Source of the DNA: Clostridium sp. DSM 17811
GTDB lineage: Bacteria > Bacillota > Clostridia > Clostridiales > Clostridiaceae
Reading direction: 5' to 3'
Length of the DNA: 50,743 nt
Assembly: GCF_018861905.1 (NCBI RefSeq)
Contig: NZ_JAHLDU010000024.1
Coordinates: 1 to 50,743 of the forward strand
Part shown: positions 2,924 to 15,481 of the stretch, piece by piece
Position numbering within the stretch: position 1 is the first letter of the stretch
Layout of the letters: each line of letters starts with the position of its first letter
Notes under the pieces: generated by a model
Databases searched by the model: none
What the model was told of the DNA's origin: nothing
What the model saw: the letters and a program-made list of their open reading frames with translations, nothing else
Position numbers and translations under genes: made by a program

Positions 2924-3177
2924 ACTCGTCCTTGGATATAAATCCAAGGACGAGTGTTAATCGCGGTACCACCTTAATTGTATCTTTAAAAAAAGACACC
3001 TCTCTTTTCGGTTCGTTAAAACCTAAGCTTTTTATCGGGACTAACCGGCTTATCCTACTTTGTTCGGAAAAGCAGCTCTGGAGTGATTTGTAATTTTTAC
3101 TTAGTATCGACTCTCAGCGGACATCGATTCTCTGTAACATAAGTTTTAAAAATTATACTCTCCATCAACGCATCAAC
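2924..3177 (-). promoter_or_regulatory. T-box riboswitch, probable Ile specificity
   Basis: Reading the minus strand, a long structured leader contains stem I, the T-box core AAGGTGGTACCGCGA (2960-2975) that pairs with the tRNA acceptor end, and directly downstream a terminator hairpin ACTCGTCCTTGGAT / ATCCAAGGACGAGT (2924-2955) followed by eight T's. The 3' side of stem I reads AAATCACTCCAGAGC, where ATC followed by A sits at the usual specifier position, pointing to tRNA-Ile. This agrees with the downstream threonine dehydratase. T-box assignment is firm; the specifier codon is my reading of the loop. Confidence 0.93.
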
Positions 3178-3380: not shown

Positions 3381-5378
3381 ATTAAGTCTAAAAAGTTAAA
3401 ACTTAACAGTATTCGTACTAAACTGATTATTAGTCTAGTATCGATTTGTATAATTCCATTAATTATACTAGGGCTTGGTTCTTATAGACAGTCAAAATCA
3501 ATTCTTAATAATAAATTAACGGTAACAAGTACACAAACACTTACAGAAATAAACAATGGATTATCTAATTACTTAAATGGATTTTCAAACATGCTTTCAT
3601 TGACATCAAATAATTATAATTTTATTAATGTTGATACAGGTAATAATATAAATTATATACCAGATTTATTAAAAGGCGTAACAGAGAGTAACAAAGATAT
3701 ACTTGATATATCTTATGGAACTACCACTGGCAAGTTTAATACATATCCTAATGACAAAATGCCTGCTGGTTATGATGCAACTGCTCAGGCCTGGTATAAA
3801 CAAGCTTTAGAGCATAAAGGTCAAGTTATAATAACCCCTGAATATATAGATAAAGGGACTAAAAAGAGTGTTATTACACTTGCAAAAACAGTAGAAAAGA
3901 ATGGAAAAGTGGTTGGAGTTGTAGAAATAGATTTAACATTAAACACACTTGCAGAGCAAATATCCACAAAGAAATTAGGAAATACAGGATATGTGTTTAT
4001 TTCGGAGGTTTCAGGTAAGGTTTTAGCTCACCCTGTAAAGAAACTTATTAACACAGATACGGCTTCTAAGTTACCGTTTTGGAATAACGCAAAGTCTCAA
4101 AATAGTGGGTTTGTTAATTATGATGATAATGGTTTAAAGAAATTTGGAGTATATCAAACAAATAAATTAACAGGTTGGAAGTTAGTGGCTACTTTAGATC
4201 AAAGTGAACTATCAAATGACACTAAGTCTATAATACATACAACTTTATTAATTATATTGATAATGGGATTAATCTCTATAGTTATGTCTTTAGTGTTAAG
4301 TAAGGGAATAGCTTATAATATTCATAATCTAAAAGATGTTTTTGCAAAGGCTTCAAATGGAGACTTAACGGTATCTATTAAAGCATCAACAAAAGATGAA
4401 TTTGAAGATTTAGCTATATCATTTAATTCTATGATAAAAAATATATCTGGAATTATGAACAATGTTACAAACTCATCAAAGACGGTAGCTGAAACCTCAA
4501 CGATTCTTGCAAGTATGTCGGAGGAGGTAACAGTTTCTATAGGTGAAGTTTCAAGTGCAATAGAGCAAGTGTCAATAGGCGCAACTCAGCAAGCTCAAAA
4601 TGCTCAAGATGGTGCTTTAGCGATGGACGATTTGTCAAATAGATTAGATAAAATTAGTAATAATTCAAATGAAATGGATAAAATTTCGACTGGGACTAAA
4701 GACTTAGGAGCAAAAGGACTGTCAATGATGGACACCTTAATTGAAAAATCAAATAAAACTAAATCATCAACTAAAGAAGTTAATGAAATAATACAAGATA
4801 TGAATGAGAGCACTAAGCAAATAAATGCTATTTCTGAGACATTAGTAAGTATTACAGAGCAAACTAATCTTTTATCGTTAAATGCAAGCATAGAATCTGC
4901 ACGGGCAGGTGAAGCAGGTAAGGGATTTGCCGTAGTTGCTGGAGAAATAAGAAAACTTGCGGAACAATCAAAAAGCTCAACAGAGGAGATTAAAGGGATT
5001 ATTGCTAATATTCAGAAAAAGTCAAACACAGCGGTAGATGCAATTAAATCAACTGAAACAGTAGTAAATGAACAGGATTTGGCGGTAGGTGAAACTAAAA
5101 ATATATTTAGTGAAATATTAAAATCAATTGATATCATGATTACTAAAGTTGAAGAGATAAAGATATCTATTGTTGATGTAAATAAGAAAAAACAATCTAC
5201 AGTGTTAGAAATTGAGAATATTTCATCTATATCAGAACAAACGGCAGCTGCGTCAGAGCAAGTATCTGCTTCGACTGAAGAAATAACAGCAACAATGGAG
5301 GATTTTGCAAAACATTCTAGTGAACTTAAAACATTATCTGAGAAATTAGATAATGAAATAAAGAAATTTAAAATATAA
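3381..5378 (+). CDS. Methyl-accepting chemotaxis protein with Cache sensor domain (probable ATT start)
   Basis: A transmembrane chemoreceptor of about 665 residues that should signal to CheA/CheW. Order: short basic N-terminus, TM1 about residues 12-32, an extracellular dCache-type sensor to about 285, TM2 about 287-310, HAMP, then a cytoplasmic signalling domain with the conserved hairpin tip [20 protein letters not shown]. The first in-frame ATG is at 3591 and would delete TM1 and part of the sensor. Upstream the frame stays open to a strong AAGGGGG (3366-3372) followed at 8 nt by ATT (3381), giving a typical receptor N-terminus, [19 protein letters not shown]. No ATG/GTG/TTG lies in the right place. 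ATT initiation is an inference; a base error in the assembly is the alternative. The ligand is unknown. Confidence 0.88.
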
Positions 5379-5541: not shown

Positions 5542-8106
5542 ATGAGTAATAAAAACATAAAAATTGTTGTAACAGGAGATATATGTATAAATTTTGTACA
5601 GAGGACAATATATCCGCAGAGCGATAAGGGGCTTAATTGGCAAACTCATTTGAATATGCATATTGCTGTTAAGCCAGGAGAAGCCTTACTTTTATCAAAA
5701 CTTGTAGCTTTATCAACTGGAGCATCTGTCATCTCACCACGGATGCCAGATTCAGCATTAATTAAAAGAGGTGAATTTCTTAGTTCTACTGCGGAACTTG
5801 AACGTTTCCCTATATTTGATGATGAAAATAGTAATGGAAAAGTTTATAGGATAAAGCGTCTTATGGGTTTTACTGGACCAGCATCTGGAAAACCCAGGTT
5901 ACTTCCGATTATTAACGATGATCCAAATGCAGACATAATTATATTAGATGATGAAAATAATGGATTTAATTCAAGTGAAGAATTTTGGCCTATAGCTTTA
6001 AAATCCTCTCAAGCAGTGCCAATAGTTTTGTATAAAATGAATAACCCTATTGATTCTAGTATACTCTGGAAACATCTTCAAAAAATGCATAATGAAAATA
6101 CTATAGTAATTATAAATGTTGATGATTTACGTTCTAAGGGCGTTAATATAAGTAAAAGTCTATCTTGGGAAAGAACAGCACAAGACTTTGTGTGGCAAAT
6201 TAATAACAATCCCAACCTTGCTTTTCTTGCTAATTGTCATCATCTTATAGTACCACTTGGTCTTGAGGGCGCAATCTACTATAGAACTGATGGTGTACCA
6301 GAAGTTAAATTGTATTTCATTCCATATGAATTTGAAGGTGGTTTTATTAAAGAATCTCAAGGCAAAATGTATGGGCTTACATCTTCTTTTGTTGCAGGTC
6401 TTGCAAGTGCTATAGTTTCGGGGATTCAAGAGAACGAGGAGTTAACAGAGTCAATAAATAGTGGTATAAGACAAGGTACTATTTCAGCTCAAAAATGTTT
6501 TATAGAGGGTTTTGGTGGGGATGTTTCTGAATCTCCATTTCCAAGTCCTGCTATATTTATTGAAAAGGAAGACGATTTTATACTTAGGGAGAATGTTCAG
6601 GATGTAATAGTGCCATCTTCACCTAATCCTAATTGTCGTGCTTGTTGGTATATTTTAAAGGATAAAAGTTCTACTAATCTAGAAGAAATAGCTTATGATA
6701 TTGTTAAAAATGGAGTAAAGAATGCACTTAAATTTATACCAATAGCGCAGTTTGGAAAATTAACTACAGTGGATAAGGCTGAAATAGAAAGCTATAGGAG
6801 TATTAAAAATCTTATGCTTGAGTATATCTCAACTAAAAATACAGTTAGACCACTATGCATTGCAGTCTTCGGTACTCCAGGGTCTGGAAAATCTTTTGGA
6901 ATACTTGAAGTAGCTAATAGCATTGCGTCAAATATAATCACTAAGCTTGATTTTAATTTGTCCCAATTTAGTACACCGCTTGATTTAGTAAACGCTTTTC
7001 ATAAAGTACGTGATATTGCACTACAAGATAAAATACCGCTAGTATTTTTTGACGAATTTGATTCTTTTATTGAAGGAAAACTTGGATGGCTAAAATATTT
7101 CTTGGCACCAATGCAGGATGGTATATTTAGAGAAGGGGATTCTATTCACCCTATTGGGAAAGCTATTTTTGTATTTGCTGGCGGAACGAGCAGTACATTT
7201 AAAGGGTTTTGTGGAGAAAACATTGAAAATGAAAAAGAACAAAAGCAGTTTTTACTTGAATTTAAAAGCGCAAAAGGTCCTGATTTTATAAGTAGGTTAA
7301 GAGGATATGTAAATATTCTTGGACCAAATCAAACTGATGATAAGAGGGATCAGTTATTTATAATTAGAAGAGCAATGCTTCTACGTTCACTGTTAGAGAG
7401 AAAAGTTCCTCATCTCATAAATGATAAAAAAGAGACTCAAATTGATAATGGAGTATTAAGGGCGCTTCTCAAAATACCAAGGTACAAGCATGAATCAAGG
7501 TCTATGGAAGCAATACTTGAAATGAGTATGTTAACTAATGCTACAAAATGGGAACAATCTGATCTACCATCTAAAGAACAGTTAAAACTACATGTAGATG
7601 AAGAACAATTTTTACGTCATTTAATGCATGATGCATTTTATAGTGAGAAAATTGAAAGGCTTGCGATGGCTATATATGAAAATAGCAGTAAGTTGGATGG
7701 AAATATTAAAATGACATGGCAGGATCTTAGTGAAGATTTTAAAAAGTTTAACCGTAATCAAGCTAAAGATATTCCTAATGCTTTACTTAAAATTAATTAT
7801 GATGTTGTTTCAGTTAAAGATAAACCGACATTTAATGAATTTACAATTAAAGAATTAGAAGTGTTAGCTGAAATGGAATATACACGACTATACCATCTTA
7901 AAAAAAGGAGTGGGTGGAAGTATGGAACAGTTAAAGATTATACGCTAAAAACTGATCCGACACTTGTCTCTTGGAATAAACTAATAGAAGATAAGAAGAA
8001 GAAATTATACCAAGTAGTTAAAATCTGGCCGGAAATATTGGCACAATCAAATTTTAAAATGGAAAGACTAGATTATATCTGTGAATGTGAGAGTAAGAAT
8101 AATTGA
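5542..8106 (+). CDS. Large AAA+ ATPase with PfkB-like N-terminal region and C-terminal RyR domain
   Basis: An 854-residue soluble protein. Residues 1-300 resemble a degenerate ribokinase/PfkB fold: a VVTGDICINF start, DIIILDDENNG, a late LIVPLGLEGAIYY strand and KMYGLTSSFVAGLASAIV where active kinases have a GAGD anion hole before FVAG. The catalytic Asp appears lost, so it may bind rather than phosphorylate a ligand. An AAA+ module follows: Walker A GTPGSGKS (444-451), Walker B LVFFDEFD (Asp504), a sensor-1-like FVFAGGTS and a candidate arginine finger in FISRLRG. The C-terminus (about 735-850) matches the bacterial RyR module: FNRNQAKDIPNAL, then LAEMEYTRLYHLKKRSGWKYG and LVSWNKL. There is no TM or signal peptide. 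The start follows GGAGTTTAAAT. It stands alone between a chemoreceptor and a kinase. AAA+ and RyR are well supported; the N-terminal reading is tentative and no function is known to me. Confidence 0.85.
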   Translation: MSNKNIKIVVTGDICINFVQRTIYPQSDKGLNWQTHLNMHIAVKPGEALLLSKLVALSTGASVISPRMPDSALIKRGEFLSSTAELERFPIFDDENSNGKVYRIKRLMGFTGPASGKPRLLPIINDDPNADIIILDDENNGFNSSEEFWPIALKSSQAVPIVLYKMNNPIDSSILWKHLQKMHNENTIVIINVDDLRSKGVNISKSLSWERTAQDFVWQINNNPNLAFLANCHHLIVPLGLEGAIYYRTDGVPEVKLYFIPYEFEGGFIKESQGKMYGLTSSFVAGLASAIVSGIQENEELTESINSGIRQGTISAQKCFIEGFGGDVSESPFPSPAIFIEKEDDFILRENVQDVIVPSSPNPNCRACWYILKDKSSTNLEEIAYDIVKNGVKNALKFIPIAQFGKLTTVDKAEIESYRSIKNLMLEYISTKNTVRPLCIAVFGTPGSGKSFGILEVANSIASNIITKLDFNLSQFSTPLDLVNAFHKVRDIALQDKIPLVFFDEFDSFIEGKLGWLKYFLAPMQDGIFREGDSIHPIGKAIFVFAGGTSSTFKGFCGENIENEKEQKQFLLEFKSAKGPDFISRLRGYVNILGPNQTDDKRDQLFIIRRAMLLRSLLERKVPHLINDKKETQIDNGVLRALLKIPRYKHESRSMEAILEMSMLTNATKWEQSDLPSKEQLKLHVDEEQFLRHLMHDAFYSEKIERLAMAIYENSSKLDGNIKMTWQDLSEDFKKFNRNQAKDIPNALLKINYDVVSVKDKPTFNEFTIKELEVLAEMEYTRLYHLKKRSGWKYGTVKDYTLKTDPTLVSWNKLIEDKKKKLYQVVKIWPEILAQSNFKMERLDYICECESKNN

Positions 8107-8129
8107 CTAACCTTAAGAAAATAGAATAG

Positions 8130-8187
8130 GGATCTGTAGAGGAGACATTTTTTTAGTGCTACTTCTGCAGGTCCTTTTATTATTTTT
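8130..8187 (+). terminator. Terminator after the RyR-AAA gene
   Basis: Long imperfect stem GGATCTGTAGAGGAG / CTACTTCTGCAGGTCC (several G-U pairs) followed by TTTTATTATTTTT. Confidence 0.75.
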
Positions 8188-8328
8188 ATTATATATAAAG
8201 CAAACATAAACATACTAAAATGTAACTTATTGTGTTAATATGGTATTATAGCATGTTTTTTAGAATATAAAATTATCGTTAGTATTAAAATATTGTTATG
8301 ATCTAATTATTAGCACAGATGGGGGATT

Positions 8329-9600
8329 ATGAATATGAGAAATGTATCTAGTATAGCAAAGCTAATTATTGCAAGCAATGAGTTTAACTTTAATGATATA
8401 GAAAAAACAGACCATGGTGCAGAACTAATTATTGCAAATAAAGAGTTAGCTTATCAAAGTGAAGAAAAGGCGGAACGAGCAGCAGAACTTGTAATTGCAA
8501 ATAAAGAATTAGCTTATCAAAGCGAGGAAAAAGCAGACAGGGCGGCAGAGCTTGTAATTGCGAATAAGGAATTAGCTTATCAAAGCGAGGAAAAAGCAGA
8601 CAGGGCGGCAGAACTTGTCATTGCAAATAAAGAGCTTACCTATCAAAATGAAGAGAAAGAAAAAAGGGCAGCGGAGTTAATTATTGCAAATAAGGAGCTT
8701 ACCTATCAAAATGAAGAGAAAGAAAAAAGAGCAGCGGAGTTAATTATTGCAAATAAAGAGCTTACCTTTCAAAATGAAGAGAAAGGTAAAAGAGCGGCAG
8801 AGTTAATTATTGCGAATAAAGTACAGGGAGAATTTCTTGTTAATATATCGCATGAACTTAAAACACCGTTAAATGTTATTTTTTCAACAGCTCAGCTATT
8901 TGATATGTATTGTAAGAACGGATCACTGGATGATAAAAAGGACAAAATAATTAAATATATAGAATCAATTAAGCAAAATTCTTATAGACTATCTAAGCTT
9001 ATTAATAACATAGTTGATTTATCAAAAATTGAAGCAGGATTCTTTAAATTGAATTTATCAAATAGTAATATAGTAACAGTTGTAGAAGAAATAGTGATGT
9101 CTGTAACTAGATTGACCGATAGTAAAGGTTTAAAAATCATTTTTGATACGGATGTAGAAGAAAAAATTATTGCTTGTGACACAGAAAAAATAGAGAGAAT
9201 AGTATTAAATCTTATATCAAATGCTATAAAATTCACGGATATAGGTGATGAAATATTTGTAGATATTAAGGATGGAAAGGAATTTGTTGAAATATCAGTT
9301 AAAGATAATGGTATTGGAATTGAAGAGAAGCATTTAGAAATGATATTTGATAGATTTAAGCAAGTAGATAAATCGCTTTCAAGAAATACGGAAGGGACTG
9401 GTGTTGGCTTAAGTTTGGTTAAGGCTATTGTAGAACTCCATGGTGGTAGCATAAAGGCACAAAGCGAATTTGGAAAAGGAAGTAAGTTTACAGTATTGCT
9501 ACCAACTGCAAAGATATCCCATGAAAGTAAGTTATATAATAGCAATGTCAGAAGTGAAAATGAAAATATACTAGTGGAGTTGTCGGATATTTATTCATGA
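8329..9600 (+). CDS. Soluble sensor histidine kinase with tandem 21-residue repeats
   Basis: A 423-residue HisKA/HATPase_c kinase with no membrane segment and no PAS or GAF domain. Residues about 31-165 are roughly six and a half copies of a 21-residue unit, AELIIANKELAYQSEEKAERA (three heptads, so a continuous coiled coil). Catalytic core: H-box NISHELKTPLNVI (His175), N-box NLISNAIKFTD near 295, G1 DNGIGIEEKH, G2 GTGVGLSLVKAIVELHGG. Similar repeats are known ahead of the HisKA domain in other kinases. There is no partner response regulator nearby, so it is an orphan; in clostridia orphan kinases often act on Spo0A, but nothing here shows that. Start ATG at 8329 (or 8335) after GGGGG. It is flanked by terminators on both sides. 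Confidence 0.92.
   Translation: MNMRNVSSIAKLIIASNEFNFNDIEKTDHGAELIIANKELAYQSEEKAERAAELVIANKELAYQSEEKADRAAELVIANKELAYQSEEKADRAAELVIANKELTYQNEEKEKRAAELIIANKELTYQNEEKEKRAAELIIANKELTFQNEEKGKRAAELIIANKVQGEFLVNISHELKTPLNVIFSTAQLFDMYCKNGSLDDKKDKIIKYIESIKQNSYRLSKLINNIVDLSKIEAGFFKLNLSNSNIVTVVEEIVMSVTRLTDSKGLKIIFDTDVEEKIIACDTEKIERIVLNLISNAIKFTDIGDEIFVDIKDGKEFVEISVKDNGIGIEEKHLEMIFDRFKQVDKSLSRNTEGTGVGLSLVKAIVELHGGSIKAQSEFGKGSKFTVLLPTAKISHESKLYNSNVRSENENILVELSDIYS
8419..8820 (+). repeat. 63-bp coding tandem repeat array
   Basis: Six and a half units of 63 bp encode the 21-residue coiled-coil repeat of the kinase. Units 3 and 4 are nearly identical in DNA, as are units 5 and 6, which suggests recent unit duplication. 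Because 63 is a multiple of three, gain or loss of units keeps the frame and changes the coiled-coil length by three heptads at a time. Confidence 0.92.
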
Positions 9601-9643
9601 TTTTATTTGCAAAACATTAATAGAAAATATGTCTAGCTAAAGT

Positions 9644-9670
9644 AACTCTGAGAATAACTCGGAGTTTTTT
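9644..9670 (+). terminator. Terminator after the repeat-containing kinase
   Basis: Stem AACTCTGAG / CTCGGAGTT (one G-U) with an AATAA loop and a run of T's. Confidence 0.85.
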
Positions 9671-9701
9671 ATGTTATTATGTACTAGGTAGAGGTGAGAT
9701 T

Positions 9702-10811
9702 ATGGAAAGTTGGATATTGATAAACAAATTAATAATACTAATTTGTGTGAGTAGTTTATTTGTAAAAGGAAGCTTTAATTATCTTTTTAGTAACTATATA
9801 GTGGTTATATCCTTACTAATTTATGTGATTATTAATGTATGCAAGGCTCTAGCTTCAAGTAGAGGACATAAACTTGTTTTTTTATGTATATCTGTTTTTG
9901 TACTTTTACTTTGTAGTTATCTTGTTACCCCTATATTTTTCATATTCTTACCAATAAACTTTTATGAAATATTTATAGGTGAAATAAAATTTGTATATAT
10001 TTTGAGTGGTTTAATAATGTCTGTTTTTATTATTAATGATAAGATTATGATATACGAATATCTCGGACCATCTTTAATTAGTCTAGTAGCATACTATTTC
10101 ATTTTAGAAAGTGAAAGAACAATAGAAAAACTTACTAAATGTAATGATTCTCTTAAAGAGAAAAACTATGAGTTGCGAGCAAAGTTAAATGATCAAATAG
10201 AATACAAAAAACAAATTATATATACATCGCAATTGCAAGAAAGAAATAATATTGCTCAAGAAATACATGACAAATTAGGTCATAGCATTTCAGGTAGTTT
10301 AATGCAACTAGAGGCGGCTAAACTTCTGGTGGACAAGGATAGTAATAAAAGCAAACTTATCATTCAAAATACAATAAATGTACTTAGAGAGGGTATGGAG
10401 AGAATAAGATTTACGCTTAAGAATATTAAACCAGAAGTTGAACAATTAGGTATAAATAAGGTTAAGTTACTTGTAGATGAGTTTAAAAATAAAGGAAAAA
10501 TCAATGCAAAACTGTATTATAGTAATGAGTTAGATAAGATAACATATATTGAGTGGAAAGTCATCTGTGACAACATGCAAGAGGTTTTTACCAATATAAT
10601 TAAATATTCACAAGCGAGCAATGTTAAGGTAAATGTGGAAGTTCTTAATACTTTAATAAAAGTAGAAATAAAGGATGATGGAATAGGATGTTTTAGAATA
10701 GAGAAAGGACTTGGGTTATCTGGGATAGAAGAAAGAACTATGAATCTAAATGGGAAAGTTATTTTTGATGGTTATAGTGGGTTTTCAGTAATTATGCTGT
10801 TCCCTATATAA
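9702..10811 (+). CDS. NarL-family membrane sensor histidine kinase (DesK/YvfT type)
   Basis: A 369-residue kinase. The first about 135 residues form several hydrophobic membrane helices with very short loops, so the signal is probably read in or at the membrane. A coiled-coil linker leads to a HisKA_3 dimerisation domain with EIHDKLGHSISG (His189) and a small HATPase_c domain with KDDGIGC and GLGLSGIEER. It should phosphorylate the response regulator that begins about 30 nt downstream. The order kinase, regulator, ABC-2 exporter resembles B. subtilis yvfTU-yvfRS and similar pairs that control export pumps. RBS GAGGTGA precedes the ATG. Confidence 0.92.
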   Translation: MESWILINKLIILICVSSLFVKGSFNYLFSNYIVVISLLIYVIINVCKALASSRGHKLVFLCISVFVLLLCSYLVTPIFFIFLPINFYEIFIGEIKFVYILSGLIMSVFIINDKIMIYEYLGPSLISLVAYYFILESERTIEKLTKCNDSLKEKNYELRAKLNDQIEYKKQIIYTSQLQERNNIAQEIHDKLGHSISGSLMQLEAAKLLVDKDSNKSKLIIQNTINVLREGMERIRFTLKNIKPEVEQLGINKVKLLVDEFKNKGKINAKLYYSNELDKITYIEWKVICDNMQEVFTNIIKYSQASNVKVNVEVLNTLIKVEIKDDGIGCFRIEKGLGLSGIEERTMNLNGKVIFDGYSGFSVIMLFPI

Positions 10812-15067: not shown

Positions 15068-15481
15068 ATGAATTATTGGTGGATAAATGCGAACCCTCAT
15101 GATGATAAAAATCCTTGGAGCTGGACAAAAAGCTTAGGAAGTGGCCAGATGGAAGAATGGAATTCAAAAAATGAACAAGGAGGGACTAGAAAATATTTTT
15201 CAAAGGTAAAGGTTGGAGATTTAGTTATTGGATATAATTCAGGAAAACAAAGAGAACTTGTGGCGCTCGGTAAAATAACGGGAGAAATGCATTTAAATAA
15301 AGATGGAATACAGGTAATCGATGTAATAAAAACTAAAGATATTCAGTTTCCTATAAGTATTGAAGAAGTAAGGCAAAATGATATTCTTAAAGATAAGTTT
15401 TCGAATGGTATAAAAGTCCGAGGTACAATTATATCGTTAACTAGAGAACAATATGACGAATTAATAAAAATGATAGTATGA
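15068..15481 (+). CDS. EVE-domain (PUA-like) protein
   Basis: A 137-residue stand-alone EVE-like domain. Hallmarks are the N-terminal YWWINANP strand, the W-rich PWSW segment, KVGDLVIGYNSG and the strand around VALGKITGEM. EVE domains belong to the PUA-like superfamily that reads modified bases in DNA or RNA; fused versions act as specificity modules of McrBC-type restriction enzymes and stand-alone versions are often of unknown function. There is no nuclease or GTPase next to it, so a defence role is only a possibility. RBS TTAGGAG precedes the ATG. A putative attenuator lies upstream. Confidence 0.8.
   Translation: MNYWWINANPHDDKNPWSWTKSLGSGQMEEWNSKNEQGGTRKYFSKVKVGDLVIGYNSGKQRELVALGKITGEMHLNKDGIQVIDVIKTKDIQFPISIEEVRQNDILKDKFSNGIKVRGTIISLTREQYDELIKMIV

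Follow-up and report, generated by a model that had tools for sequence, protein, structure and literature searches.

The gene at positions 5542 to 8106 on the plus strand of the 50,743-nucleotide stretch analysed here (the window) encodes an 854-residue protein in which a PfkB-like region, an AAA+ ATPase module and a tandem pair of RyR units follow one another; all features of this gene given below are on the same strand. The first-pass annotation had proposed this three-part order from the letters, and profiles and motifs bore it out. The open reading frame starts with ATG, occurs in one copy in its own genome, and is real and strongly constrained. A literature search found no paper describing a pseudo-PfkB/AAA+/RyR architecture, and the protein had no matches at E≤1 to NCBIfam profiles and matched no family at E≤1 among the PADLOC defence profiles.

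We tentatively favour, at slightly less than an even chance, a reading in which the product is a remodelling ATPase of the AAA+ type that stands alone and comes from a family engaged in TIR/ADP-ribose signalling. The motor would be flanked in front by a catalytically dead PfkB-like domain and behind by an exchangeable sensor slot, whose occupant is swapped or decaying. In relatives with the full set of ligand residues, the tandem RyR would bind an ADP-ribose-type signal, for example a TIR product, and the motor would then be switched. Stepwise loss of the RyR pocket would have taken place in the large clade of stand-alone, Clostridium-type proteins, and in the window copy the pseudo-PfkB domain or a protein partner may have taken over control of the motor. 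With RyR, another domain or nothing in the slot behind one AAA+ core, and with ligand residues that persist in few members (one of which lies in a TIR locus) but are missing from the others, the family offers a natural test of the bacterial RyR domain as an ADP-ribose sensor. It would also illustrate the loss of an immune-type sensor from a motor that remains under selection.

The tandem RyR tail and its ligand positions

An RyR domain had been predicted at the C-terminus. Pfam RyR (PF02026) matched the window protein with E=4.9e-6, its 27.1 bits lying slightly under the cut-off of 27.4 when this protein is taken alone, and the family was above cut-off in 17 of the 24 genomes searched. A profile of the RyR regions of 13 relatives retrieved ryanodine-receptor structures from the PDB with E=1.1e-24, and none of 14 control genomes contained an RyR domain. 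The prediction therefore stood, with a revised extent. The domain proper, supported by PF02026, the PDB profile search and the alignment described below, covers about residues 768-846 (unit 2; 7843..8079), and the stretch NRNQAKDIPNAL that had been assigned to it belongs to a degenerate unit 1 at about residues 698-767 (7633..7842). The two units matched each other by hhalign at 96.75% (E=3.2e-10), a score reached by none of 200 column shuffles, and three relatives gave second, weak PF02026 matches (E 0.0019-0.0026) at the place of unit 1. Judged from these matches, the tail consists of two tandem units rather than one, which is also the arrangement in ryanodine receptors. The pairing and the profile matches to R12 structures recall the R12 tandem repeat of these receptors, which are calcium channels of animals; on the other hand, the window protein has no channel, its unit 1 is strongly degenerate and its ligand residues are gone. 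A 154-residue open reading frame consisting of the tandem RyR tail alone (L074, 7914-8378) was found in genome G006 alongside two full copies.

A recent preprint reports that RyR domains of phages sense the cyclic ADP-ribose signals used in immunity and break them down (PMC13232231). The same source describes RyDEP (gp78 of phage DyoEdafos) as dimeric and assigns its ADP-ribose contacts, on the basis of a structure and mutants, to H75, W78, H100 and D117 (PMC13232231). Of the 30 cores that bear RyR, 26 were aligned with RyDEP; L060, L061, L062 and L147 were omitted because their RyR is truncated or decayed. RyDEP and the phage RyR-domain sponges share the PF02026 domain with our protein: the alignment to unit 2 is free of gaps from the H75 place to the D117 place, and a GW.YG motif is common to both. 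RyDEP is a single domain of 138 residues, whereas here two tandem units follow an AAA+ motor and each of the four contacts is changed, to Y780 (7879..7881), L783 (7888..7890), D805 (7954..7956) and L822 (8005..8007), respectively. Across the 26 cores, H75 was kept in 24, W78 in 20, H100 in 10 and D117 in 3. Three members (L031, L063, L148) carry the full set, and two, the window copy and its nearest relative L047, carry none. Since all four contacts are replaced, gating of the window protein through an RyR-held nucleotide, as first proposed, is probably not applicable, and the RyR pair therefore most likely serves as a tail for structure, oligomerisation or protein binding.

The alternative that fares best is that the pocket has been re-specialised rather than lost, with the replaced residues fitting a different small ligand and the protein still gated by a metabolite. 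The altered pocket may indeed bind another ligand. dN/dS of unit 2 was 0.06-0.34 in the 10 of 12 pairs that gave a value. In 9 of these 10 it exceeded the value for the AAA+ module (0.01-0.15), yet it was below 1 in all of them, which indicates that the unit is still under purifying selection; the GW.YG motif and the pattern of helices surrounding the pocket are also retained. In addition, the preprint reports that six of eight RyDEP homologues tested by its authors bind without cleaving (PMC13232231). However, the contact positions differ freely within the clade (H/Y; W/L/R/S; D/N/H/Y; many residues at the D117 place). Some members, namely the four omitted from the alignment, have a truncated or deleted RyR. 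Free variation together with truncation and deletion is unlike a new shared specificity, and we therefore regard re-specialisation as rather unlikely and continue with a pocket lost from the window lineage.

Exchange of the C-terminal domain and the TIR-linked locus

Among 48 aligned cores, 30 bear RyR, 16 have another C-terminal domain and 2 have no C-terminal domain. This set leaves aside three stop-interrupted copies (L005, L008, L014), L028 and L030/L074 (fragments), L050 and L160, as well as L186 and L187, which came from the search of the window's class. The replacement domain begins with RIGITGH, and a pattern cut it out of 13 of the 16 cores (L139, L154 and L155 were missed). All 13 matched the front domain of a gene that, in G355 and G242, adjoins a TrkA/RyR channel gene, with BLAST E values of about 1e-13 to 1e-20 and 99.15% by hhalign (0 of 100 shuffles). 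TIR genes flank the G242 locus on both sides (E 2.6e-21 and 2.6e-18), and the G355 locus includes a DUF4062 gene. Pfam assigned no family to the replacement domain, and the channel-adjoining gene that shares it matched SLATT_1 weakly, without reaching the cut-off (E=0.0084).

By eye we took the RIGITGH-type domain to resemble SLOG. We did not retain the name, as Pfam gave no family and hhalign against the LSDAT region of L070 gave 0.06%. L070 itself (8014-10608, minus strand) combines a RelA/SpoT domain, a weak LSDAT match below cut-off and RyR in one protein. Other arrangements of RyR were also seen. In G452, where the core carries the other C-terminal domain, a stand-alone RyR protein of 95 residues (L088, 1492-3263, minus strand; 105.8 bits) adjoins a gene that has TPR-S and weakly matches a cyclase. 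L071-L073 are proteins of 578-592 residues with RyR at the end and, by eye, an HD-like motif; in L071, Pfam recognized RyR only.

In a tree of the AAA+ module, the 27 RyR cores without the full contact set formed one group (98/99), as did the 16 cores with the other C-terminal domain (100/100). The three full-set members require two changes on this tree, on which L031, L032 and L149 sit on long branches, and the tree appears compatible both with a single origin of these members and with separate ones. Read by eye, it places the loss of D117 across the whole stand-alone group and has W78 lost more than once. In its ancestral form the slot probably sensed a signal of the ADP-ribose type, and the window lineage appears to have lost the RyR pocket while its motor stayed under selection.

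At the level of the family, the gating proposal is partly supported by the three full-set relatives. Two of them have another RyR gene next to them, separated from the core by a TIR gene in one case, and the third lies near a SIR2 gene. In G269, a TIR gene (PF13676, E=1e-12) is situated between the RyR gene and the core; all three are encoded on the same strand, separated by 66 and 41 bases, and in the RyR protein (PF02026, E=5.7e-8) a membrane stretch was recognized by eye. In G592, a contig ends at the start of the core, which is overlapped by the 3' part of a comparable RyR gene. In L031, from Methylobacterium sp. FF17, a SIR2-annotated gene lies 1.4 kb from the core on the opposite strand, with a transposase between. 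The TIR link of the full-set relatives comes from one locus, G269. The adjacency there of TIR, an RyR membrane protein and the core RyR gene is reminiscent of Thoeris, which couples TIR to an ADP-ribose-sensing effector; in contrast to Thoeris, there is no ThsA, and the window copy has no TIR among the scanned neighbours and no ligand residues. A more specific version of our reading, which we consider somewhat unlikely, is that the family constitutes a signalling machine not described before, arranged as in G269, in which TIR would make an ADP-ribose signal that the RyR membrane protein and the pseudo-PfkB/AAA+/RyR motor read through the same sensor. The clostridial stand-alone proteins, the window copy included, would then be the motor set free, with its pocket dead.

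The neighbours of the window gene are, by Pfam, a methyl-accepting chemotaxis protein (MCP) gene and a histidine kinase gene. The MCP gene (3591-5378) is without the first 82 residues of the copy in L047 (677 residues; 94% identical over the rest), and the histidine kinase gene (8329-9600) carries an N-terminal array of 63-base (21-residue) repeats at 8400-8821, which is length-variable, with 6.7 copies in the window and 4.4 in L047. Around the stand-alone cores the commonest neighbour cluster was a chemotaxis-type MCP, present in 7 of 23 loci at a distance of up to three genes; MCPsignal, with 6 members, was the top Pfam family among the 91 neighbours lying up to two genes away in 27 loci. 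The earlier remark that no effector gene lies next to this gene is supported, no partner gene being conserved among the homologues, and in the loci surveyed the neighbours give no pointer to what the motor would remodel. PADLOC matches among the 91 neighbours were scattered, with at most two members per family among the 25 of 83 families listed, and rare TIR or SIR2 genes could lie outside these. An active defence-island context was dropped.

Another possibility is a role as a defence effector: the protein would work in trans with TIR, or with another enzyme that consumes NAD, encoded elsewhere in the genome, and would still be gated by a signal. The common orientation of the three genes in G269 and a patchy occurrence are consistent with this. 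Matches were found in 20 of 148 genomes of relatives (own genome counted) and in 13 of 391 genomes of the window's class, some of them RyR-only or broken. Corresponding counts were 11 of 398 phylum-wide (6 with a core, own genome counted, and 5 RyR-only), 9 of 73 for G269's order, and 18 of 63 for G452's class (16 with a core); these genome samples overlap. The window copy has neither the contacts nor a conserved neighbour, however, and we regard an effector in trans as unlikely. Distant relatives occur on two plasmid records. Carriage by phages or viruses was discarded, as no match was found among 50,697 phage records, and none of 600 viral stretches fitting a pattern codes for a relative.

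The AAA+ motor and the PfkB-like front

The AAA+ module covers about residues 395-697 (6724..7632). Its assignment had been made from the motifs GTPGSGKS and FFDEFD, and this was confirmed. Walker A lies at residues 444-451 (6871..6894) and Walker B at 502-507 (7045..7062), and K450, D504 and E505 are invariant in the 48 aligned homologues, as are R585 (7294..7296), a candidate arginine finger, and R653 (7498..7500), a candidate sensor-2 arginine. Pfam AAA matched the protein with E=0.0032, below its cut-off. In hhalign the best partners, named by eye, were of Lon type (94.5%) and of ClpB type, and the AAA+ group is not settled because a CDC48-like protein also reaches 92.8%, the margin over other AAA+ groups being slight. 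The likeness to Lon- and Clp-type ATPases consists of these best profile matches and of a conserved R653 in a sensor-2-like place; unlike them, our protein has no protease domain and has unique flanking domains. In distant cores the only PADLOC match was mad8 (E 0.007-0.025), extending across the ATPase, and mad8 membership was rejected on account of these weak ATPase matches. The ATPase motifs are intact, and the activity would be ATP-driven remodelling.

Stop-interrupted copies in the relatives G010, G818, G942 and possibly G759, together with repeated decay of RyR, raise the possibility that the gene is a relic heading to loss, without present function. A dN/dS of 0.01 for the AAA+ region between the window copy and L047, and motif residues invariant in 48 of 48 homologues, speak against this, and we consider it improbable.

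The N-terminal region, here residues 1-345 (5542..6576), had been described as reading like a ribokinase fold whose GAGD motif is gone. Pfam gave no PfkB or ribokinase match at E≤1 and a PDB sequence profile search of the region found nothing at E≤10, so that this identity was retained only through profile-profile tests. Against a profile of 31 PfkB members the N-terminal profile scored 37.9, a value reached by none of 150 column shuffles (13.6±2.1, maximum 20.2); the reversed profile scored 16.3. The hhalign probability for the same comparison was just 41.6%, and single-sequence PfkB comparisons gave low probabilities, 6% at best. A profile of 45 N-terminal regions was also compared with 391 sequences, comprising 380 neighbour ORFs and 11 labelled PfkB-type proteins. 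The top three were PfkB proteins, two labelled (ranks 1 and 3) and one an unlabelled control that is itself a PfkB with GAGD (rank 2). Other labelled proteins ranked 7, 10, 19, 21, 24 and 42, and the last three 75, 356 and 361. Taking these profile results together, we consider the region PfkB-like with moderate confidence.

The alignment spans the second half of the domain only, and in it GLTSSF (residues 278-283; 6373..6390) takes the place of GAGDAF, with S281 at the catalytic Asp, in agreement with the loss originally noted. In this column the 48 cores have Ser in 27, Thr in 13, Ala in 6 and a gap in 2. The relatives in G269 and G592 have a shortened front. The PfkB-like profile could be taken to favour an active kinase for sugars or nucleosides, joined to an ATPase with a regulatory role, but in contrast to the PfkB/ribokinase family the Asp is missing in all 46 homologues with a residue at its place, and we regard this as highly improbable.

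A promoter scan gave a count expected by chance (16, versus 17.8 in shuffles). Elsewhere in the window, a T-box leader (2943-3177, minus strand) lies upstream of the gene at 1633-2877, an EVE-domain gene is present at 15068-15481 (E=7.3e-9), and the contig starts with two copies of 5S rRNA, at 1-104 and 190-306.
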